Source: Verrucomicrobiota bacterium
GTDB lineage: Bacteria > Verrucomicrobiota > Verrucomicrobiia > Limisphaerales > SXTU01
DNA: 34,329 nucleotides
Direction of reading: 5' to 3'
NCBI GenBank assembly: GCA_016235545.1
Contig: JACRKB010000236.1
Span: 1-34,329, forward strand
The notes below the pieces were generated by a model. The model made no database searches, was not told the origin of the DNA, and was given only the letters and a program-made list of their open reading frames with translations. Of the stretch, positions 2,378-34,021 are shown piece after piece. How positions within the stretch are numbered: position 1 is the first letter of the stretch; each line of letters starts with the position of its first letter. The position numbers and the translations under genes were made by a program.

Positions 2378-3388
2378 ATGAGCAGCATGAAGACCTTCGG
2401 CGCAGACGGCGGACTGCCGCGCCGGCAATTCCTCCGGCAAAGCGCGCTCGCAACGGCGGCGGTCGTCGGTGTGGCCACCCACGCTGCCGAGCCACGGAAG
2501 GCCCGCGTCGCCGTCTCGCTCGACCTCGAGATGTCGCGCAATTTTCCGGCGTGGGAGCAGACGCATTGGGATTACGAGAAGGGAAACCTCGACGCGGCGA
2601 CGAAGCGCTATGCGGTCGAGGTCGCGCGGCGCGTGAAGGCGCGAGGGGGCGTGGTGCATTTCTTCCTCGTGGGCCGCGCGCTGGAGCAGGAAAACGTGGG
2701 CTGGCTCAAGCAGTTGATTGCCGACGGTCATCGCGTGGGCAACCACACCTACGACCACGTCAACGTGAAGGCGGCGAAGGCGGATCAAATCCAGTTCCGC
2801 TTCCAGCGCGCGCCGTGGCTCATCGCGGGGAAGGAGCCGGCTGCTGTCATACGCGAAAACATTGAGCAATGCACGGCGGCGATGAAGTCGCGGCTGGGTG
2901 TCGCGCCGAATGGCTTCCGCACGCCCGGCGGTTTTGGCAACGGGCTGGCGGACGCGCCGCAGGTTCAGAAGATATTACGCGAACTCGGCTTCACCTGGTG
3001 CAGCAGCAAGTATCCCGCGCACGCACCTCCGAAGCCCGGCGAGGAGCCGGACGCGTCGGTGGTGGCGGACATCGTGCGCGCGCAGGCGGAGGCGCAGCCC
3101 TTCCGCTATCCCAGCGGGCTGGTGGAAGTCCCGATGAGTCCCATCAGCGACATCGGCGCGTTCCGCACGGGGCGCTGGAAGCTGGAGTGGTTCCTGCGCG
3201 TGACGCGCGCAGCGGTGGAGCACTGCATCGAGCGCGGGCTGGTCTTTGATTTTCTCGCGCACCCGAGCTGCCTCGGCGTGGTGGACCCGGAGTGCCGCAC
3301 GGTGGAGATGATTTGCGATCTGCTGGCGAAGAACCGCGAGCGCGCGGAGCTGACGGACTTGGAAGCGGTGGCGAAGGCGTTGAGCTGA
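2378..3388 (+). CDS. Polysaccharide deacetylase (NodB domain), Tat-type signal
   Basis: This protein of about 336 residues begins with a twin-arginine export signal (LPRRQFLRQSALATAAVVGV) ending near an Ala-rich site, so it should be exported folded. The NodB-fold motifs visible are SLDLEM, where the catalytic Asp motif normally lies, the metal-ligand motif HTYDH, the RTPGGF motif and a late LAHPS motif. Family members remove N- or O-acetyl groups from cell-wall or extracellular polysaccharides using a divalent metal. The usual TFDD motif is changed to SLDLE, so the first motif is atypical. A second ATG at 2387 would shorten the protein by three residues. The gene is divergent from the BtuF-like gene and converges with the hydrolase gene downstream. 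Confidence 0.87.
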   Translation: MSSMKTFGADGGLPRRQFLRQSALATAAVVGVATHAAEPRKARVAVSLDLEMSRNFPAWEQTHWDYEKGNLDAATKRYAVEVARRVKARGGVVHFFLVGRALEQENVGWLKQLIADGHRVGNHTYDHVNVKAAKADQIQFRFQRAPWLIAGKEPAAVIRENIEQCTAAMKSRLGVAPNGFRTPGGFGNGLADAPQVQKILRELGFTWCSSKYPAHAPPKPGEEPDASVVADIVRAQAEAQPFRYPSGLVEVPMSPISDIGAFRTGRWKLEWFLRVTRAAVEHCIERGLVFDFLAHPSCLGVVDPECRTVEMICDLLAKNRERAELTDLEAVAKALS

Positions 3389-4720: not shown

Positions 4721-4806
4721 GGAAAGTATTCAGTGTTCAGTGTTCAGTAGAGCACGCTGTTCATTTCATCGACTGACAACTGAACACTGAACGCTGAATA
4801 CTTTCC
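4721..4806. repeat. Hairpin element with 28-nt arms of CAGTGTT repeats
   Basis: Arms 4721-4748 and 4779-4806 are reverse complements at 27 of 28 positions, with a 30-nt spacer; the single difference still allows a G-U pair. Each arm contains a 7-nt tandem unit (CAGTGTT/GTTCAGT). It lies between the divergent starts of the hydrolase and the GYF_2-RDD gene, so it would be in the 5' leader of the long operon if transcription starts upstream. It is the most regular member of the hairpin family in this window. Confidence 0.85.
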
Positions 4807-9739: not shown

Positions 9740-9776
9740 ATCACGTCCGCCGCACCACCGCCAGTTCCTGCGATTT

Positions 9777-9804
9777 CGCATTCCGCATTCCGCATTCCGC
9801 ATTC
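9777..9804. repeat. Four tandem CGCATTC heptamers before the DUF4350 start
   Basis: CGCATTC is repeated four times without interruption and ends two bases before ATG 9807, where a ribosome binding site would normally lie. No complementary arm is visible nearby, so it is a single-arm member of the short-period repeat class. It leaves no purine-rich Shine-Dalgarno sequence for the DUF4350 gene. Confidence 0.8.
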
Positions 9805-9806
9805 CC

Positions 9807-11174
9807 ATGACCCGCCGCCTCAACATCACGTTGTGCCTCGGCCTCCCGCTGCTGGCGCTGCTCATCGGCGGCGTCTTCCATCTCTTCTCTCTCCGCTTCA
9901 CCACCGGCGACATCTACCCGCCCTACTCCTCCCTGCGCGCCGACCCGCTCGGCACCAAGGCGCTGCTCGACAGCCTCGCCTCGCTCCCCGGCGTCACTGC
10001 CCAAGGCCTGCTCGACCCGCTCCCGCGCCTGCCCGGCGGCGGACGTGACACGACGCTCCTCGTCCTCGGCACGCAGCCCCGCGCGCTGGAACTGATGCCC
10101 GCGCACGACTTCAAGGAGGTCGAGGACTTCATGCGCGCCGGCGGCCGCGTCCTCATCGCCTGCCCTCCCATGACCAAGGAACCTCGGCTTTCCGATGACG
10201 AGGAACGCGACACGCCCGGCGAAGTGAAACCGAAATCGCAACCCAAGAAGGACGCCAAGAAATCCGACGCAAAAAAGTCCGACGCGCAGAAAGCCAAGGA
10301 CAAGAAGAAGGAGGCTGAAGAGCGCCTGCCGGAGGAAATGCGCCGCGTGAAACTCTCCACCAAGTGGGCTGTGTCCCTCGCCTATCGCGAGCTGCCGCAC
10401 GACGAAACCGGCGCAACCCGTGGCATCGAGGCCGAACGCGTCGGCAGCGATGCAGCGATGCCGGCCACCCTCCAATTCCACACCGCGCTCCATTTCCGCG
10501 ACCTCGGCCCGCAGTGGCGGACGAACTACCAGCGCGTCGAGCAGTTGGCCATCCCATCACGCGAAGTCGGCGGCCCGTGGCGGACCAACACTGTCCGCAC
10601 TGGTTTGCCCGTCGTCATCGAGCGCAGCTTCGGCCTCGGCACGCTCATCCTCTGCGCGGATTCGTATCCCTTCAGCAACGAAGCCCTTCGCCGCAACCGC
10701 CAGCTCGACCTGATCACGTGGGCCATCGGCGCAAATCACCGTGTCGTCTTCGACGAGACGCACCTCGGCGTGAACAACGACCCCGGCGTCGCCGCGCTCG
10801 CGCGTCGCTACCGGCTGCACGGCTTCTTCGGCGCGCTGCTCGTGCTCGCGCTGCTCTTCGTCTGGAAGAGCACCTCACCCTTCATCCCGCCGCACTCCGA
10901 CGCCGACCTCGATGGCCGCGCCGACCTCGTCGAGGGCAAGGACTCCGCGTCTGGATTTGTAAATCTCCTGCGTCGCGGCATCCCCGCCAGCGAGGTGCTC
11001 GCCGTCTGTTTCGCCGAGTGGAAGAAGTCTTTCTCCCACGCCCAGTCCCACCTCCGCCCTCGCCGCGAACGCATGGAGCAAGTGCTGCAAAGCGAGACCG
11101 CCCGCCCCGCCCGCGAGCGCCAGCCAGTCGTTGCCTACCAGCAGATCAGCCGCATCTACAAGGAACGGAAATGA
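9807..11174 (+). CDS. DUF4350-type membrane protein
   Basis: The 455-residue protein has an N-terminal membrane helix (about 7-27), a long extracytoplasmic-type region and a second helix near 335-352. The first 60 residues after the helix (YPPYSSLRADPLGTKALLDS) match the DUF4350 pattern, in which a surface domain begins with a 'layout of available parts' motif followed by an alpha/beta sandwich (LLVLGTQ, RVLIACP). DUF4350 genes normally accompany MoxR, DUF58 and DUF4129 genes, as here. An unusual lysine-rich, low-complexity stretch lies at 141-173 and looks like an insertion. The gene is bracketed by two inverted copies of a REP-like repeat. No enzymatic function can be claimed. Confidence 0.83.
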   Translation: MTRRLNITLCLGLPLLALLIGGVFHLFSLRFTTGDIYPPYSSLRADPLGTKALLDSLASLPGVTAQGLLDPLPRLPGGGRDTTLLVLGTQPRALELMPAHDFKEVEDFMRAGGRVLIACPPMTKEPRLSDDEERDTPGEVKPKSQPKKDAKKSDAKKSDAQKAKDKKKEAEERLPEEMRRVKLSTKWAVSLAYRELPHDETGATRGIEAERVGSDAAMPATLQFHTALHFRDLGPQWRTNYQRVEQLAIPSREVGGPWRTNTVRTGLPVVIERSFGLGTLILCADSYPFSNEALRRNRQLDLITWAIGANHRVVFDETHLGVNNDPGVAALARRYRLHGFFGALLVLALLFVWKSTSPFIPPHSDADLDGRADLVEGKDSASGFVNLLRRGIPASEVLAVCFAEWKKSFSHAQSHLRPRRERMEQVLQSETARPARERQPVVAYQQISRIYKERK

Positions 11175-11639: not shown

Positions 11640-11680
11640 GAAGCACCGAACTCAAAACCCATAACTCCAAACTCAGAACC
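11640..11680. repeat. Single arm of AACTCAAAAC-type repeats before moxR
   Basis: The stretch carries CGAACTCAAAACCC, AACTCC and AAACTCAGAACC units in tandem. These are the same as the right-hand arms of the elements at 13566, 14726 and 15792. No left arm is visible upstream. It ends about 10 nt before ATG 11690. Confidence 0.6.
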
Positions 11681-11689
11681 CCCTTCCTC

Positions 11690-12649
11690 ATGAACACCGA
11701 ACATCTCAAACACACCCTCATCCGCGCCCGCGCCGAAGTCGCCAAAGTCGTCATCGGCCAGGCCGAGGTCGTGGACCGCGCGCTCATCTGCATCTTCACC
11801 AACCAGCACGCGCTCATCGAGGGCGTGCCCGGCGTGGCGAAGACCCTGCTCGTCCGCACCCTCGCGCACGTGCTGGGCTGCGACTTCTCGCGCATCCAGT
11901 TCACGCCGGACCTCATGCCGTCGGACATCACCGGCACGAACGTCTTCAACCTTCAGCGCAACGAGTTCAACCTCATCCGCGGCCCGGTCTTCACTAGCTT
12001 CCTGCTTGCCGATGAAATCAACCGCGCGCCCGCCAAGACGCAGTCCGCGCTGCTGCAAGCCATGCAGGAGCGCGTGGTGACGATTGACCGCGACACGCAC
12101 GCGCTGCCGCCGAACTTCACCGTCTTCGCCACGCAGAACCCCATCGAATACGAGGGCACCTACCCGCTGCCGGAGGCGCAGAAAGACCGCTTCATGCTGA
12201 AGATCACGATGCGCCCGCCGGAGCGCGACGAGGAGCTCTCGCTCGCCCGCCGCACGCTCGGCACGGATTCGCCGGAAGCCACGCTCGCCAGCGGCGCGGT
12301 GCAGCGAGTCATCACCGCCGACGCGCTCGTCGCGCTGCGCGCGCAACTCGCCGCGCTCACGTTGCGCGAGGAGCTGTCCGCCTACGCCGTGGACATCGTC
12401 CGCGCCACGCGCGCCCACGAGAGCGTGCTGGTGGGCGCCGGCCCGCGCGCGTCGCAGGCGCTGCTGCTCGCCAGCCGCGCGCAAGCCGCCCTTGCCGGCC
12501 GCGACTTCGTCACGCCCGACGACATCAAGGCGATGGCCGTGCCCGTCCTCGATCACCGGCTCATCCTGCGCCCGGAGTTTGAGATTGAGGGCGTGACGGT
12601 GAGCGAGGTGATTCAGAAGGTGTTGCAGGAGATTGCCGTGCCGAGATGA
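11690..12649 (+). CDS. MoxR-family AAA+ ATPase
   Basis: This 319-residue AAA_3 ATPase has a Walker A GVPGVAKT at residues 45-52, a Walker B FLLADE at about 104-109 followed by INRAPAKTQSALLQAMQE, and a sensor-1 segment FATQNPIEYEGTYPLPEAQ near 146-164. The C-terminal lid domain is complete (ATPase lid, ending near ILRPEFEIEG). MoxR proteins are chaperone-like ATPases that act on vWA-domain partners to mature or activate protein complexes. The likely partner here is the DUF58 protein encoded 114 nt downstream. The start at ATG 11690 gives the normal family length. It is the catalytic core of the operon. Confidence 0.95.
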   Translation: MNTEHLKHTLIRARAEVAKVVIGQAEVVDRALICIFTNQHALIEGVPGVAKTLLVRTLAHVLGCDFSRIQFTPDLMPSDITGTNVFNLQRNEFNLIRGPVFTSFLLADEINRAPAKTQSALLQAMQERVVTIDRDTHALPPNFTVFATQNPIEYEGTYPLPEAQKDRFMLKITMRPPERDEELSLARRTLGTDSPEATLASGAVQRVITADALVALRAQLAALTLREELSAYAVDIVRATRAHESVLVGAGPRASQALLLASRAQAALAGRDFVTPDDIKAMAVPVLDHRLILRPEFEIEGVTVSEVIQKVLQEIAVPR

Positions 12650-12763: not shown

Positions 12764-14161
12764 ATGATCGTCCCCCGCACACGCCTCCTGACCTGGTTCG
12801 CCCTGCTGGCGCTGCCCTTCGCCACGTTGGCAGTGGCGTTGCCGGAGTCGGCGGCGCTCACGGGCGGGCTGGCGGGGTTGTTTGTCCTCCTCGCGCTGCT
12901 CGATGGCGTGATGGGCGTCGGCGCGCTGGACGGCTTGAGCGTCGAGCTGCCCAAGGTTGTGCGTCTCTCGAAGAACCGCCCAGGCGAGCTGGAGTTGCAA
13001 GTGGTCAACCCCTCGAAACGTCAGCGCGAAGTCCGCCTCGGCTTGCCGTTCCCGCGCGAGCTGGCCTCGGCGCAGGAAGACCTCACCGCGTTGCTGCCCG
13101 CGAAAGCCGAGCGCGCCAAACTCACGTGGCCGTTCCAGCCGCTCAAGCGCGGCAGCTTCGTCCTCGACCAGTGCTACTTGGAGTGCGCGTCGCCGCTCGG
13201 CTTCTGGTCCGTGCGCGGCGCCACGCCGGCGCAGTGCGAGGTCCGCGTTTACCCAAACCTGCTCACGGAGCGGAAGAGCGTGGCGGCGCTGTTTCTCAAT
13301 CGCGGCCAGTTCGGCGTCCACGCGCTGCGGCAGGTCGGCAAGGGGCGCGACTTCGAGAAACTCCGCGAGTATGTGCCCGGTGACGACTACGGCGAGATTC
13401 ACTGGAAGGCCACTGCCAAGCGCGGCAAGCCGGTGACGAAAGTCTTCCAGATCGAGCGCACGCAGGAGGTTTATGTCATCATCGACGCGTCGCGACTGAG
13501 CGCGAGGGAAGCGGTTCTGAGTTCTGAGTTCCGAGTTCCGAGTTCGGCGTCCGAGGCCGAGTCCCGACTCGGAACTCAAAATCCAGAACTCAAAACTTCC
13601 GTGCTTGAGCGCTACCTCACCGCCGCCCTCGTCCTCGGCCTCGCAGCGGAGCAGCAAGGCGATTTGTTCGGACTGCTCACGTTCAGCGACCGCGTGCAGT
13701 CCTTCGTGCGCGCGAAGAACGGCAAGGCGCACTACGCTCATTGCCGCGACTCGATTTACACGCTCCAGCCGCAGCTCGTCTCGCCGGACTTCGAGGAGCT
13801 GGCGAGCTTCCTCCGCGTCCGGCTGCGCCGCCGCGCGCTGGTCATCGTGCTCACCGCGCTGGATGACCCGCTGCTGGCCGAGCAGTTCGAGCGCAGCATG
13901 GAGCTGCTCTGCCGCCAGCACCTGATCCTCGTCAACATGATGCAGCCGCCCGGCGCGCGTCCGCTCTTCTCCGCGCCGGATGTGGAGAAGGTGGACGACG
14001 TGTATCAACGCCTCGGCGGCCACCTGCTCTGGCACCGCCTCCGCGAAATGGGCAAATCACTCCAGCACCACGGCGTCACCTTCAACCTGCTGGACAACGA
14101 GCGCCTGAGCGCGCAGCTCGTGACGCAGTATCTCGCGGTGAAACGCCGCCAACTGATTTAG
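12764..14161 (+). CDS. DUF58 (vWA-like) protein with in-frame repeat insertion
   Basis: This 465-residue protein has two N-terminal membrane helices, a beta-rich domain, and the DUF58 signature REYVPGDDYGEIHWKATAK near residue 205. A vWA-like region follows, starting EVYVIIDASRLSAR, where the aspartate would be the first MIDAS-type residue. DUF58 proteins are the usual partners of MoxR ATPases and can act as membrane-bound scaffolds. Residues 250-279 are foreign: they are encoded by a palindromic repeat element (13514-13596) and read VLSSEFRVPSS ... LGTQNPELKTS. Normal family members go almost directly from the DASxS segment to the helix beginning here as LERYLTAALVLGLA. The insertion is a multiple of three, so the frame is kept. 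Confidence 0.92.
   Translation: MIVPRTRLLTWFALLALPFATLAVALPESAALTGGLAGLFVLLALLDGVMGVGALDGLSVELPKVVRLSKNRPGELELQVVNPSKRQREVRLGLPFPRELASAQEDLTALLPAKAERAKLTWPFQPLKRGSFVLDQCYLECASPLGFWSVRGATPAQCEVRVYPNLLTERKSVAALFLNRGQFGVHALRQVGKGRDFEKLREYVPGDDYGEIHWKATAKRGKPVTKVFQIERTQEVYVIIDASRLSAREAVLSSEFRVPSSASEAESRLGTQNPELKTSVLERYLTAALVLGLAAEQQGDLFGLLTFSDRVQSFVRAKNGKAHYAHCRDSIYTLQPQLVSPDFEELASFLRVRLRRRALVIVLTALDDPLLAEQFERSMELLCRQHLILVNMMQPPGARPLFSAPDVEKVDDVYQRLGGHLLWHRLREMGKSLQHHGVTFNLLDNERLSAQLVTQYLAVKRRQLI
13514..13596. repeat. Hairpin element inserted in frame in the DUF58 gene
   Basis: Arms 13514-13544 and 13566-13596 are complementary at 25 of 31 positions, with a 21-nt spacer. The left arm is built of GAGTTCT/GAGTTCC units and the right arm of GAACTCAAAA units. 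It lies wholly within the coding sequence and adds about 30 residues between the vWA-like first strand and the following helix. Confidence 0.88.
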
Positions 14162-14214
14162 TTCTGGGTTTTGAGTTCGGAGTTCTGAGTTGTTAGTTCG
14201 TGAGCCGACATAAA

Positions 14215-14277
14215 ATGAAACGCAACATGACAAAGTGTGAAACCCGTGAACTCCGAGACCCCAAGCTTAAAACCTGA
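14215..14277 (+). pseudogene. 3' remnant of a second four-helix-bundle gene
   Basis: The last 13 codons before TGA 14275 read ETRELRDPKLKT, against ETCELRGPKFKT at the C-terminus of the intact gene (14317-14709). The similarity continues about 35 nt past both stop codons, giving a direct repeat at 14241-14312 and 14671-14742. An ATG at 14215 is in frame but starts inside non-homologous sequence. The body of the protein is missing, so I read this as an internally deleted copy, not a functional small gene. Confidence 0.7.
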
Positions 14278-14316
14278 CGCTCCCGACATTTCCAACTCAG
14301 AACCCAAAACTCCCCC

Positions 14317-14709
14317 ATGGCGAAGATTACAAAGTTCGAGGACATCGAGGCCTGGCAGCACGCGCGCTTGCTGACCAAGGCGATTTACCAGATCACCAGC
14401 ACCGGCCTGTTCAGCCGGGACTTCGCGCTGCGCGATCAGATTCGGCGCGCGGGTGTGTCCAGCATGGCCAACATCGCCGAGGGGTTTGAGCGCGGTGGCA
14501 ACCGCGAGTTTATCCAGTTCCTCTCCACGGCAAAAGGCTCGGCGGGCGAAGTGAAGGCCCAACTCTACGTCGCGTTGGACGCGGGCTTCCTCGCCCAGCC
14601 GAAGTTCGATGAACTCTATCAACTGGCCGATGAGACCAGCCGACTCTGCGGCGGCTTCATGCGCTACTTGGAAACTTGCGAACTCCGCGGCCCCAAGTTC
14701 AAAACCTGA
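14317..14709 (+). CDS. Four-helix-bundle protein (S23 / 23S rRNA intervening-sequence protein family)
   Basis: The 130-residue protein matches the four-helix-bundle family (TIGR02436, S23/IVP). It has FEDIEAWQHARLLTKAIY at the N-terminus, LRDQIRRAGVSSMANIAEGF in the middle, then FIQFLSTAKGSAGEVKAQL. Family members are small basic helical bundles encoded in intervening sequences of 23S rRNA, or standing alone. The related Avd protein works with diversity-generating retroelement reverse transcriptases; there is no reverse transcriptase here. The stand-alone role is unknown, and nucleic-acid binding is plausible. It splits the otherwise standard DUF58-SpoIIM order and is flanked on both sides by arms of a hairpin repeat. 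It should be co-transcribed with the operon. Confidence 0.93.
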   Translation: MAKITKFEDIEAWQHARLLTKAIYQITSTGLFSRDFALRDQIRRAGVSSMANIAEGFERGGNREFIQFLSTAKGSAGEVKAQLYVALDAGFLAQPKFDELYQLADETSRLCGGFMRYLETCELRGPKFKT

Positions 14710-14763
14710 GGCGCCCGAACCAAACAACTCAGAACTCAAAACTCCGAACTCAGAACCATCCTC

Positions 14764-15828
14764 GTGGTCATTGACTTGGAAAAATTCGTCCTCGCCGAGC
14801 GGCCTTACTGGGCCGAGCTGGAGGCCATGCTCGTGAAGCTGGAGGCGGACGCGGCGCTGCGGCTGGAGCTGAAGCAGCTTCAACGGCTGCACTATCTTTA
14901 CGAGCGCACCTCGGCGGACCTCGGCAAGCTGGTGACGTTTGCGTCGGAGCCGGAGACACGGCGCTACTTGGAGAGTTTGGTCGCGCGGGCTTACGGCGAG
15001 ATCCACGAGACGCGCGAGAAGCCGCACCGGCTCGCGCCGCTGGACTGGTTCTTCCAGACGTTTCCGCAGACGTTTCGCCGGCACGCGGGCGCGTTCTGGC
15101 TGTCGGTGGCGATTACAATGGTCGGCGTCCTCTTCGGGCTCGGCGCGGTCGCGCTGGACACGGAGGCCAAGGGCATCCTGCTGCCGTTCGGCCACGGTGA
15201 GATGGACCCCGCCAAACGAGTGGCGCGTGAGGAGCGGGACGGCGGCAAACACCTCGAAGGCCACAAGGGCACCTTCTCAACCCACTTGATGACCCACAAC
15301 ACGAAGGTATCCATCACGGCGATGGCGCTGGGAATGACGTGGGGCATCGGCACCATCGTGCTGCTCTTTTACAACGGCATCATCCTCGGCGGCGTGGTCG
15401 TGGACTACGTGCTCGCTGGGCAGACGAAGTTTCTCATCGCATGGCTGCTGCCGCACGGCTCGATTGAAATCCCCGCCATCCTCATCGCCGGGCAGGCGGG
15501 TCTGCTGCTGGGCCGCGCGCTGATCGGGCGCGGCAGCCGGCAGGGCCTTCGTGCCCGGATGCGCTCGGCAGCCCCGGACCTCGTCACGTTGATCGGCGGC
15601 GTGGCTGTCATGCTGGTATGGGCGGGGTTCATCGAGGCGTTCCTCTCGCAGTATCACGGGCCGCAGCTCTACGCGGGGAAGATAGCGTTCGGCTTGGTTG
15701 AGGTCGTGTTGCTGGCCGTCTTCCTCGCGCGCTCGGGGAAGAGGGGTTCTGAGTTCCGGGTTCCGGGTTCGGAGTCGCCGCTCCAAACGTCAACTCCGAA
15801 CTCAGAACCCAAAACTCAAAACAGTTGA
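14764..15828 (+). CDS. SpoIIM-like (stage II sporulation protein M family) membrane protein
   Basis: This 354-residue protein starts at GTG 14764 with VIDLEKFVLAERPYWAELE, the usual opening of the long SpoIIM-like proteins found beside MoxR/DUF58. A soluble helical region of about 100 residues leads into the membrane domain. That domain has the family motifs HNTKVSITAMALGMTWGIG, YNGIILGG and PHGSIEIPAILIAGQAG. The name comes from a Bacillus sporulation protein, but nothing here suggests spore formation. Residues 328-354 (beginning GSEFRVPGSES and ending PKTQNS) are encoded by a repeat element that also supplies the stop codon. The natural C-terminus has therefore probably been replaced or extended. 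The stop overlaps the next start by 4 nt. Confidence 0.9.
   Translation: MVIDLEKFVLAERPYWAELEAMLVKLEADAALRLELKQLQRLHYLYERTSADLGKLVTFASEPETRRYLESLVARAYGEIHETREKPHRLAPLDWFFQTFPQTFRRHAGAFWLSVAITMVGVLFGLGAVALDTEAKGILLPFGHGEMDPAKRVAREERDGGKHLEGHKGTFSTHLMTHNTKVSITAMALGMTWGIGTIVLLFYNGIILGGVVVDYVLAGQTKFLIAWLLPHGSIEIPAILIAGQAGLLLGRALIGRGSRQGLRARMRSAAPDLVTLIGGVAVMLVWAGFIEAFLSQYHGPQLYAGKIAFGLVEVVLLAVFLARSGKRGSEFRVPGSESPLQTSTPNSEPKTQNS
15746..15822. repeat. Hairpin element forming the 3' end of the SpoIIM-like gene
   Basis: The left arm begins at 15746 (GTTCTGAGTTCC) and the right arm spans 15792-15822 (AACTCCGAACTCAGAACC and onward). They pair at about 25 of 30 positions with a spacer of about 17 nt. 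The element is coding for 27 residues and ends just before the overlapping stop/start TTGA. It is the same sequence subfamily as those at 13514 and 14161. Confidence 0.85.
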
Positions 15829-17851: not shown

Positions 17852-18982
17852 TCAGATGCCCGCCGCGACCCGGCACAGGATGCGCCGGTGCGCGCTGGTG
17901 AACGGGAGGGCGTGCAGCTCCGGCATGCACAGCCAGCGAGTGTGCGCCGGAACGCTCGCCTCCGCCGATGGCCAGCGAACGCGAAACACGCGCTGCGTGA
18001 TGCGGTAGCGGGTGATGGTGTGTTTGACCTCGCAGAGCGGCTCACAGCGGATGGTGACCTGCAATAGCTGTTTCGCCGAGGTCTCCGGAGCGAGGCGCAG
18101 GCCCGTGACTTCGAGGTTGGGGAATTCCCACAGGCGCGCGTTGACGCCGCCAGCAGGCCGTTGCGTCACGAGGAATTTTCCGCCCCGCTCCATGACGAAG
18201 GTGTGAAACTCCCGGCTGGTGGCGCTGGCGCGTGGGCTGAGGTTCGGCAGTTCTCCCACGCGTCCCTCTCGGTGCGCCGCGCAGAGCGACTGCACGGGGC
18301 ACTGCGGGCACTGCGCGTTCTGCGGCGTGCAGAGTGTCGCGCCGAGTTCCATGAGCGACTGGTTCAACGCGGAGCATGGAGCGGGGAGTTGGGGGTTGAG
18401 AGTTGAGGGTTGAGAGTCGGCGGCGGCCTGGACGAGGCGAGTGGCGAGCAGCCAGAGTTGGGCGTTCGTTGTCTTTTCGCGGGGATTTCCGCGGATGCCG
18501 AAGAGGCGGGTGAGGACGCGGATGACGTTGCCGTCGAGGATCGGGTTCGGGGCGTTGAAGGCGATGCTGGTGATCGCGCCCGCCGTGTAGCGGCCCACGC
18601 CGGGAAGCGCGAGCACGGCATCGAAGCCGCGCGGGAAGTGGCCGGCGTGCTGGGCGACGATTTGCTGCGCGGCCTTTTGCAGGTTGCGGACGCGCGTGTA
18701 GTAGCCGAGTCCTTCCCAAAGTTTCAGCACGCGCTGCTCCGGCGCGGCGACGAGCGCTGCGACATCGGGCAGCTCGCGCATCCAGCGTTCCCAATACGGG
18801 ATGACGGTCTTGACCTGCGTTTGCTGGAGCATGATCTCCGAGACCCAAATCGCGTAGGGATCGAGCGTGCGCCGCCACGGGAGATTTCGGGCGGCAATGG
18901 CAAACCAGTCGAGCAGAGAGGGAACGAGCGAATGGGGAGCGGGAGAACGACGCAACTTTGAACTGGATGTCTGTGGCGGCAC
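17852..18982 (-). CDS. mutY: A/G-specific adenine DNA glycosylase MutY
   Basis: MutY removes adenine mispaired with 8-oxoguanine in base-excision repair. Visible features, in order, are the LPWRRTLDPYAIWVSEIMLQ segment with the catalytic Glu, the helix-hairpin-helix LPGVGRYTAGAI, the catalytic Asp in LDGNVIRVLTRLFG, and an iron-sulphur cluster ligand set C-x6-C-x2-C-x5-C (CTPQNAQCPQC ... C). A C-terminal NUDIX-like MutY_C domain senses 8-oxoG. The start is uncertain: GTG 18982 and TTG 18955 are candidates, and an ATG at 19120 would overlap the divergent rnhC gene. Between LATRLVQAA and NQSLMELGATLC there is an in-frame stretch (SQPSTLNPQLP) encoded by short-period repeats at 18382-18420. Confidence 0.9.
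   Translation of the reverse strand: MPPQTSSSKLRRSPAPHSLVPSLLDWFAIAARNLPWRRTLDPYAIWVSEIMLQQTQVKTVIPYWERWMRELPDVAALVAAPEQRVLKLWEGLGYYTRVRNLQKAAQQIVAQHAGHFPRGFDAVLALPGVGRYTAGAITSIAFNAPNPILDGNVIRVLTRLFGIRGNPREKTTNAQLWLLATRLVQAAADSQPSTLNPQLPAPCSALNQSLMELGATLCTPQNAQCPQCPVQSLCAAHREGRVGELPNLSPRASATSREFHTFVMERGGKFLVTQRPAGGVNARLWEFPNLEVTGLRLAPETSAKQLLQVTIRCEPLCEVKHTITRYRITQRVFRVRWPSAEASVPAHTRWLCMPELHALPFTSAHRRILCRVAAGI
18382..18420. repeat. Short-period repeat arm inside mutY
   Basis: On the plus strand the sequence runs CGGGGAGTTGGGGGTTGAG, then AGTTGAGGGTTGAGAGTCGG, a quasi-repeat of GTTGAGG/GTTGAGA. It is read in frame on the minus strand within mutY, just before the conserved NQSLMELG helix. A complementary arm is not evident. 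Confidence 0.6.
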
Positions 18983-19000
18983 GCGCGCGCAGTTTGCACT

Positions 19001-19033
19001 CGATACTGGAAACTCAAAACTCGAAACTCGCCG
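19001..19033. repeat. Single repeat arm between mutY and rnhC
   Basis: Tandem GGAAACTCAAAACTCGAAACTC units lie in the short divergent gap before rnhC. They resemble the right-hand arms in the MoxR operon. They end about 17 nt before the rnhC ATG. Confidence 0.5.
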
Positions 19034-19049
19034 CGTGAAACCGCTGACG

Positions 19050-19997
19050 ATGCACACTTGCAAGCTGACGGACGAGCAGGCCGCCGCGCTGGATGGACAT
19101 CTGCGCGAGCATGGGTTCAAGCCGCGCGCGGTGCCTTACGCGCGGTTCGCGGGGGAGAAGGACAAGCTCAACGTCGTCTTTTACGAGAGCGGCAAGCTGG
19201 TCGTGCAGGGCAAGGGCACGCAGGAGTTCGTCGAGTTCGTGCTGGAGCCGGAGATTTTGAAGCGAGCGGAAGTGGGCTACGAGGAGGTGTTGCACCCGGA
19301 GATGTTCGTGGCGCGCATCGGCGTGGATGAATCGGGCAAAGGCGATTTCTTCGGGCCGCTGTGCGTGGCGGCGGTGTATGTGAACGAGTCTGTGGTGCGC
19401 GCGTGGCAGGATGCGGGAATTCAGGACTCGAAGAACATCGGCAGCGACCGGCGCATCGCAGACCTCGCCAAAGTGATCCGCGAGACGCCAGGCTGCCACA
19501 ACGAGGTGCTCACACTCGGCGGCGTGAATTACAACCAGCGCTACCGCGACATCGGCAGCCTGAATCCGCTGCTGGCGAAGGGCCACGTGAACTCCATCCT
19601 CGCGGTGCTCGCTCCCGCGCATCACCTGAACCCGCCGCCGGAGCACGCGATTATTGACCAGTTCGCAGCGACGGAGACGACGGTGGCGCGCGAGGCGAAG
19701 GCGCGGGGCTTGAAGCTGAAGATCGTTCAGCGGCACAAGGCGGAGGCGGATCTCGCGGTGGCGGCGGCTTCCATTCTGGCAAGGCATGCGTTCGTCACCG
19801 GGCTGGCAGCGCTGGGCCGGGAGATCGGCTTGGAGCTGCCGAAGGGCGCGTCCGCAGCCGTGGACAAGGTGGCCAGGCAAATTGTCGAGCAGCACGGCGT
19901 CGGGACTCTTGCGCGGGTGGGGAAGATGCATTTCCGCACGGCGCTGCGCGCGCAAGGGTTGCCGGAGCCGCCGAAGGTGGAGTGGCGACGAAAGTAA
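19050..19997 (+). CDS. rnhC: Ribonuclease HIII
   Basis: This 315-residue protein has an N-terminal TBP-like substrate-binding domain (about 1-80, with GEKDKLNVVFYESGKLVVQG) and a C-terminal RNase H-type catalytic domain. The catalytic signature is GVDESGKGDFFGP, with D93 and E94; further acidic residues are seen in IIDQF (D203) and in KAEADLAVAAASILAR near 230-245. RNase HIII cuts the RNA strand of RNA-DNA hybrids and can act at primers. GxGxGK-like features and the N-terminal domain separate it from RNase HII. ATG 19050 gives the normal length; a GTG at 19035 is also possible. It is divergent from mutY. Confidence 0.92.
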   Translation: MHTCKLTDEQAAALDGHLREHGFKPRAVPYARFAGEKDKLNVVFYESGKLVVQGKGTQEFVEFVLEPEILKRAEVGYEEVLHPEMFVARIGVDESGKGDFFGPLCVAAVYVNESVVRAWQDAGIQDSKNIGSDRRIADLAKVIRETPGCHNEVLTLGGVNYNQRYRDIGSLNPLLAKGHVNSILAVLAPAHHLNPPPEHAIIDQFAATETTVAREAKARGLKLKIVQRHKAEADLAVAAASILARHAFVTGLAALGREIGLELPKGASAAVDKVARQIVEQHGVGTLARVGKMHFRTALRAQGLPEPPKVEWRRK

Positions 19998-26325: not shown

Positions 26326-26430
26326 GGGCCAAGCTTTCTGCCGCCCCTCCGGGGCTTGCGTCGCTCTGCCGCTGGACCCACGGCTTTTGCGCCGCGGGCT
26401 ACTTTCTGTCGCAACTCCGTTGCTGCAACC
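26326..26430. repeat. Cluster of hairpins with TCC loops between convergent genes
   Basis: Three hairpins follow one another: GCCCC-TCC-GGGGC near 26343, ACCCACGGC pairing with GCCGCGGGCT around 26377-26402, and GCAAC-TCC-GTTGC near 26411. The three-base TCC loop is shared with hairpins inside 11401-11586. It lies in the 254-nt gap between convergent aroF and the 26533 gene. Confidence 0.65.
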
Positions 26431-33925: not shown

Positions 33926-33933
33926 GGGAGGGG

Positions 33934-34010
33934 AGAGTGATTAGTAATTAGTGTTTAGTAAAAAGTGAGTGTGGGTGGTGACGGACTAAGCACTAATTAC
34001 CAATCACTTT
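33934..34010. repeat. Hairpin element of TTAGTAA-type repeats between pstB and phoU
   Basis: Arms 33934-33959 and 33985-34010 are reverse complements at 23 of 26 positions, with a 25-nt spacer. Each arm has 7-8 nt quasi-repeats (TTAGTAA, TTAGTGT). It nearly fills the 96-nt gap between pstB and phoU and would form a hairpin in the shared transcript. Confidence 0.85.
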
Positions 34011-34021
34011 CTTCAAATGGT

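Follow-up and report, generated by a model that had tools for sequence, protein, structure and literature searches.

Why should an S23 gene, of the kind carried in the loop of 23S rRNA intervening sequences (IVS), lie between complementary arms in a protein operon? The question is raised by a locus in the window analyzed here, the whole stretch of 34,329 nucleotides that makes up positions 1-34,329 of JACRKB010000236.1 (GCA_016235545.1, Verrucomicrobiota bacterium; genome labeled G000, 95% complete). The IVS ORF was described in 1993 (cited in PMC3936711), and 18 IVP genes in cas loci were noted in 2013 (PMC3936711). Among the matches listed for open PMC full text, no earlier report connected free-standing S23 genes to heptad arms. 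In the best reading of the data presented below, the locus belongs to an element class found in many bacterial phyla, which has the plan of the 23S rRNA IVS and occupies gene junctions inside protein operons. The locus comprises the following features.

12764-14161, plus strand: DUF58 gene, the upstream host gene of the operon
14161-14194, plus strand: left (5′) arm of tandem GAGTTCN-type heptads, complementary to 14723-14756 at 29/34 positions
14239-14277, plus strand: S23 relic from an older copy, comprising its terminal 12 codons and stop, translation ETRELRDPKLKT*
14293-14312, plus strand: second right-arm copy before the S23 start, part of both an inverted and a direct repeat
14317-14709, plus strand: S23 / 23S_rRNA_IVP gene, 130 aa, four-helix bundle (PF05635, E 4e-32; AlphaFold2 model)
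14723-14757, plus strand: right (3′) arm of AACTCNN-type heptads, complementary to the left arm
14764-15828, plus strand: SpoIIM-family gene, the downstream host gene

The initial annotation had described 31-nucleotide arms, complementary at 26 positions, around a complete S23/IVP four-helix-bundle gene inserted between the DUF58 stop and the SpoIIM start. All of this was confirmed. Segments 14161-14191 and 14726-14756 are complementary at 26/31 positions (the wider span listed above gives 29/34), the enclosed ORF matches the S23 family, and the element sits between the TAG of DUF58 at 14159-14161 and the GTG of SpoIIM at 14764. Long complementary termini forming a stem are present: in the minimum free energy fold of 14150-14770 the outermost stem is formed by the arms (20 shuffles, z −5.2), and the best score between left and right flank is 47, against a peak of 27 in 100 shuffles. 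Two properties had been overlooked, the first being that the arms are tandem heptads. Period-7 tracts extend over 14158-14202 on the left and 14721-14758 on the right, 7 is the best period, and the right unit is the complement of the left GAGTTCN. The second is that the element holds duplicated material: 14239-14313 is 79% identical to 14671-14745 and contains the 3′ end of an earlier S23 copy (12 codons with the stop), and the second copy of the right arm lies directly 5′ of the intact gene. The window locus is a small hairpin element of about 600 bp, with an S23 gene in the loop and arms of tandem heptads.

The initial annotation had likened this plan to that of the 23S rRNA IVS, in which a long terminal stem likewise encloses an S23 ORF, and the likeness proved to go deeper. 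In the rRNA IVS of Coxiella, up to three tandem GACAGAT heptamers precede the S23 start codon; their copy number differs among strains, and the RNase III site lies at the first repeat (PMC4990558). The Coxiella IVS thus shares the anatomy of the S23 elements described here, and it hints at how an element may be tolerated in transcripts: once transcribed, the heptad stem would fold away and be cut by RNase III, as in the rRNA IVS. To the authors of the Coxiella study the protein mattered less than the RNA; its ORF is variable or partly deleted among strains (PMC4990558). The window element differs from an rRNA IVS in lying within a protein operon rather than a 23S rRNA gene, and no rRNA match at gathering threshold was found in the window or in 20 arm-poor S23 loci. 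It differs further in that its arms are heptad arrays whose unit varies by locus and in that gene-less relatives occur elsewhere in the genome.

The initial annotation had also proposed that free-standing S23 genes represent a family of hairpin elements outside rRNA, and both checks that it named, enrichment of arms around S23 genes and empty sites in relatives, gave supporting results. For the first, a scan of GTDB representatives was used, with labels that include Verrucomicrobia, Planctomycetota, Bacteroidetes, Acidobacteria, Nitrospirae, Chloroflexi, Proteobacteria and Patescibacteria. The best 80 of at least 553 confirmed S23 relatives were taken, three of which were left out for short flanks. 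Arms were present in 61 of these 77 testable loci and at 8/552 displaced positions drawn from the same loci; with a score of ≥28 and a best period of 7, the corresponding counts were 40/77 and 0/552. Some of the loci have units of 8 or 9 nucleotides. Same-order relatives were added to this set in a pooled test, which 177 of 189 S23 hits entered after removal of window duplicates, exact duplicates and genes with a flank under 200 nucleotides. Complementary flanks were observed at 142/177 S23 genes versus 26/1163 displaced positions, and the stricter requirement of score ≥28 with best period 7 left 97/177 versus 2/1163. The 35 genes outside the 142 lack arms at threshold. Other small genes, called mechanically as ORFs, had complementary flanks in 8/278 and 5/115 cases, and since one of the eight is itself an S23 gene, the control value is 12/392.

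A separate draw from Gammaproteobacteria gave 20/25 testable S23 loci (of 30) versus 6/128. A set of 12 genomes gave 20/29 testable loci (of 30) versus 5/149, and is not independent of the GTDB set, with which it shares 11 loci. On plasmids, 6/8 S23 loci pass by score and the other two show arms by eye only. The pairing is also specific to the locus: when right flanks are ranked by their pairing with a given left flank, that of the same gene comes first in 86/177 cases and within the top three in 135/177, and only 2.7% of cross-locus flank pairs reach threshold. In direct orientation, 23/177 flank pairs do so. Chance arms are rejected by the displaced positions, the small-gene controls and the cross-locus pairs; the association of S23 with arms is real and general in the loci sampled. 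The 5′ arms tend to be G-rich (G exceeds C in 123 of 142, equals it in 6 and falls below it in 13), and a strict polarity rule was dropped given the 13 that run the other way. A conserved outer terminus common to all S23 elements was likewise dropped, the base profile being only mildly skewed.

Three individual loci from these sets are recorded separately. Near one S23 locus, a small ORF (L134 3648-4058) has strong complementary flanks that are not heptads (score 63). At L148, around position 3001, the arms around S23 are long and consist of a larger repeat of another kind (GGGCTTCGCCGTT..TGCTTCGCAC, score 105). Loci L101 and L109, from MAGs labeled Chloroflexi and Bacteroidetes, encode S23 proteins that are 90% identical and have similar GAGTACC-type arms, which reflects either transfer or a binning error.

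Seven S23 genes were found in G000, and all seven lie between inverted heptad arms with flank scores of 31 to 58. Each has its own unit, matched between both arms when read by eye; at one of them (L006) the score passed through a non-heptad alignment, and the heptad arms are those read by eye. The window itself contains four further heptad palindromes without a gene.

4721-4806, plus strand: gene-less palindrome, AGTGTTC-family unit (RNA fold z −8.0)
13514-13596, plus strand: gene-less heptad palindrome, in frame within the DUF58 ORF (RNA fold z −4.8)
15746-15822, plus strand: gene-less heptad palindrome at the junction of the SpoIIM 3′ end and RDD (RNA fold z −3.3, 1/200 shuffles as good)
33933-34011, plus strand: gene-less palindrome, AGTAATT-type units (RNA fold z −7.7)

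Two of these were compared with a congener, G006. The palindrome within DUF58 consists of GAGTTCC-type units in G000 and of AAGTTCA-type units at the same place in G006, and its arms score 36 and 33 within genomes and 18 and 20 across them, a concerted change. The family at the end of SpoIIM is also present in G006, without such concerted change (35 and 34 within, 40 and 30 across). The window holds several additional repeats. A tandem GCATTCC array at 9767-9814, with no pairing arm called, ends just 5′ of an ATG at 9807, and a lone AACTC-type arm at 11646-11681, also with no partner called, directly precedes the MoxR start codon at 11690. Further period-7 tracts at 18370-18423 (GAGTTGA-type) and 18997-19037 (GAAACTC-type) lie near the long minus-strand ORF 17852-19120, which we take to be mutY. 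The Rfam RNA Acido-Lenti-1 was matched at 26377-26424 (39.9 bits).

In 323 kb of G000 sequence, 13 heptad palindromes with loops of up to 60 nucleotides were counted, and the sole long-loop heptad palindrome, besides one cross-match, was the S23 element of the window. When 20 AGTGTTC sites were taken from this genome, an inverted repeat was obtained at 13, one of which has a different and nested unit, and at seven there was none. The loops of 12 short AGTGTTC palindromes, 11 sampled and that of the window, are no more alike than shuffled loops. The initial annotation had likened the repeats at 13514 and 15746 to empty or deleted versions of the element; they are indeed gene-less palindromes of a related kind, but an origin as simple deletion copies of one element does not hold for the 12 same-unit palindromes because their loops are unrelated, and the idea that gene-less palindromes are copies of one fixed palindrome was dropped on the same ground.

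Such palindromes could also arise from polymerase slippage followed by template-switch (quasi-palindrome) correction, in which case they would be insertion hotspots and S23 a chance passenger. Their frequency in G000, their unrelated loops and the different units that relatives hold at the same junction would suit this origin, and slippage is a published account of abundant heptanucleotide repeats (cited in PMC4679880). The content of long loops argues otherwise. In 1.10 Mb of unselected sequence, four long-loop period-7/8 pairs were found (score ≥34, loop 200-2000 nucleotides), of which two contain S23, one is a cross-match of separate arms and one has neither S23 nor a recognized gene; other genes would be expected among passengers, though four long-loop cases are few. 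The distribution of gene-less palindromes points the same way. Seven S23-bearing genomes gave 15 in 686 kb (10 in G000, four in G006 and one in G035), versus none in 381 kb of six S23-lacking relatives. Two genomes supply 14 of these 15, the samples from four of the seven S23-bearing genomes (58-80 kb) contain none, and one palindrome (L066 13301) is not heptad-like by eye. Given also that the arm unit tracks S23 relatedness, as described below, an origin by slippage with S23 as passenger is considered unlikely.

Sites free of the gene were found at several junctions, so that the second check, for empty sites, was also answered. In congener G006, whose SpoIIM is 90% identical, the DUF58-SpoIIM junction is about 100 bp long and S23-free, with a small palindrome built from a different unit. 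Flanks of up to 1.5 kb at the 14 other SpoIIM loci gave no S23 hits (E ≤1e-4). A second junction was compared within one genus: the spacer before a DUF1501-like gene is 14 nucleotides in G001, and the element is present there in G003. In G003, as also in G010, the downstream gene's reading frame passes through the right arm. The names SGNH and DUF1501 for genes in these neighborhoods are presumed assignments. Cyanobacterial cas6-cas4 junctions provide the third case. In the type I-D cas operon of an Anabaena sp. 90 plasmid, the element lies between cas6 and cas4, and the annotated Cas4 reading frame extends through the right arm. The same junction holds a different, non-heptad insert in Dolichospermum UHCC 0315A (Cas4 98.5% identical over 90% of its length) and a gap of 23 nucleotides in Nostoc UHCC 0302. 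Pseudanabaena galeata carries S23 at a cas junction at which strain ABRG5-3 has a 36-nucleotide gap with a short heptad array. Insertion, loss and turnover are indistinguishable at some of these gene-free junctions because another heptad array or insert is present. In P. galeata (L400 1780-2600), arrays of (AAAAGCT)n and (AAAAGCC)n lie on the two sides of S23 and share one orientation, and an inverted array follows at a greater distance. Direct copies of this kind, like the second right-arm copy of the window, could recombine and delete the S23 gene.

The absence of the gene in close relatives bears on the proposal that the arms are regulatory only: as RNA they would form a hairpin controlling or insulating expression of the operon and its S23, which would be a host gene and not part of an element. 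The gene does sit tightly between its arms, the right arm beginning a median of 6 nucleotides after the stop; it is under purifying selection (see below); and both neighbors are co-directional with it in 24 of 34 low-GC loci where both were callable, all of which a regulatory hairpin would accommodate. Such a role sits poorly with host neighbors that are unrelated to one another (cas and type IV secretion genes on plasmids, DUF58 and SpoIIM in the window), with the gene-free sites and with a gene-less palindrome in frame within the DUF58 ORF, and a regulatory hairpin would need neither tandem heptads nor one unit at many sites. A purely regulatory function is accordingly rated as improbable, and the IVS-like element remains the preferred reading.

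Under that reading, gene and arms should be related together, and this was examined by comparing loci in non-homologous contexts (no blastp hit at 1e-8 within 1.2 kb). Arm similarity grows with S23 identity over 9789 such pairs (r 0.25; 0/1000 permutations as high), and among pairs above 70% S23 identity, near-identical arms were found in 3/11. In G005 and G010, the same S23 (84%) and the same arms precede different genes, and the nucleotide sequences cease to match at the outer ends of the arms. The two sites share a larger neighborhood, and local movement is therefore possible in this case; L015 and L020, which belong to different families, show the same similarity boundaries. Transmission of gene and arms as one unit is well supported. 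Transposition was not seen, and no target-site duplication was apparent at the few aligned sites compared.

The arm units are dispersed in some of these genomes. Exact dimers were counted as overlapping matches in 12 genomes, with a reversed-pattern control that gave 0 throughout. GGGAATC dimers number 29 in G436 and 0 in the 11 other genomes; GTGAATA dimers 186 in G318, 82 in G316 and 0 in the 10 others; and AGTGTTC dimers 17 in G126, 27 in G263, 39 in G000, 14 in G006, one in G145 and 0 in the seven others. In four genomes the arm unit of the S23 gene is also present at other sites (17-186 dimer matches). A strict link in cis is contradicted by AGTGTTC, which has 39 dimers in G000 and is carried by none of the seven G000 S23 genes.

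Dispersed palindromes tied within a genome to a dedicated gene family are known from REP/REPIN sequences, whose partners are the RAYT (Y1) transposases. The S23 elements share this arrangement of palindromes and dedicated gene family; by contrast, the enclosed gene here is S23 rather than Y1, the units are tandem heptads, and G436 has S23 and a dispersed unit with no Y1_Tnp match. Y1_Tnp (PF01797) was matched somewhere in 17 of 18 S23-bearing genomes, G436 being the exception, and dependence of the element on a Y1 transposase was dropped on that account. The G436 S23 is 59% identical to the Xanthomonas protein XCC0516, whose structure is solved, over query residues 1-64, and a class draw for XCC0516 relatives gave nothing above 59% identity among the matches listed. 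The gene in G436 is split into two frames, and the dispersed unit of this genome, GGGAATC, is the published Xanthomonas heptanucleotide unit (PMC4692102).

The AlphaFold2 model of the window S23 is a four-helix bundle with a pLDDT of 94.6, whose best PDB matches are 2gsc (E 3.0e-6) and 2rld. XCC0516 is a toroidal homopentamer (Lin et al. 2006, cited in PMC4990558), and the function of S23 proteins is described as still not known in PMC4990558. Substitution rates indicate that S23 is under purifying selection: among 33 close pairs, the 27 whose dS is finite have a median dN/dS of 0.08, with 0.78 in one pair that is very close. The fold is shared with Avd of diversity-generating retroelements (DGRs). 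Avd 4dwl ranks 12th among the matches of the model (TM 0.72/0.86, with a Foldseek E of only 0.022), and Avd chains of the DGR ribonucleoprotein (8ube, 8ub7) are matched as well. This resemblance, which extends to an Avd within its ribonucleoprotein, is what would recommend a retroelement whose reverse transcriptase is supplied in trans to an Avd-like S23. RVT_1 (PF00078) gave no match in 9/18 S23-bearing genomes, which include G000, unlike a DGR in this respect, Berkelbacteria G067 (titled a complete genome) and G436. Dependence on a reverse transcriptase was dropped in view of these nine genomes, and a retroelement of this type is considered highly improbable.

Taken together, the data are best explained by widespread IVS-like hairpin elements in protein operons, with S23 in the loop and element-specific heptad arms, a reading to which we assign a probability of about two-thirds. 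How the element moves and what its protein does are matters of inference, as are stem cleavage, arm recognition and the dependence of the gene-less palindromes. Cleavage of the stem, as outlined above, would let the operon tolerate the element. S23 probably recognizes its own arms; as an Avd-like pentameric four-helix bundle it would bind the heptad stem as RNA or DNA, and it may help to copy or maintain the arms. Same-unit gene-less palindromes would be its dependants or relics.

A broader proposal is that free-standing S23 genes and rRNA IVS form one pan-bacterial mobile hairpin class, that the heptanucleotide excess of genomes is largely its footprint, and that arms are written onto DNA. 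Here, arms would not be transposed as a fixed palindrome; S23-specific heptads might, for example, be added to both 3′ ends of a break in a telomere-like manner. Such writing would explain the matched arms, the G-rich 5′ arms (123/142) and the unrelated loops. We regard this extension as doubtful in its entirety. Heptanucleotide simple sequence repeats are likewise intergenic tandem heptads, with the period found in the window arms. The published examples are GGGAATC in Xanthomonas, GGGGA(C/T)T in Nostoc and TAACTGA in Beggiatoaceae, and Xanthomonas heptads occur also as convergent inverted pairs (PMC4692102, PMC4679880). The string "s23" is absent from the main texts of these two papers, which thus draw no S23 link under that name. 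One survey reported heptanucleotide repeats to rank first in abundance among long simple repeats in most of its genomes (cited in PMC4679880).

The link between S23 and hairpins would explain why S23 genes are found inside cas loci. As for the abundance of heptanucleotide repeats, we know of no accepted cause. The apparent joint travel of gene and hairpin may account for a gene family and a repeat type that have each been puzzling, and the link between S23 and heptads makes a single testable system of these two orphans.
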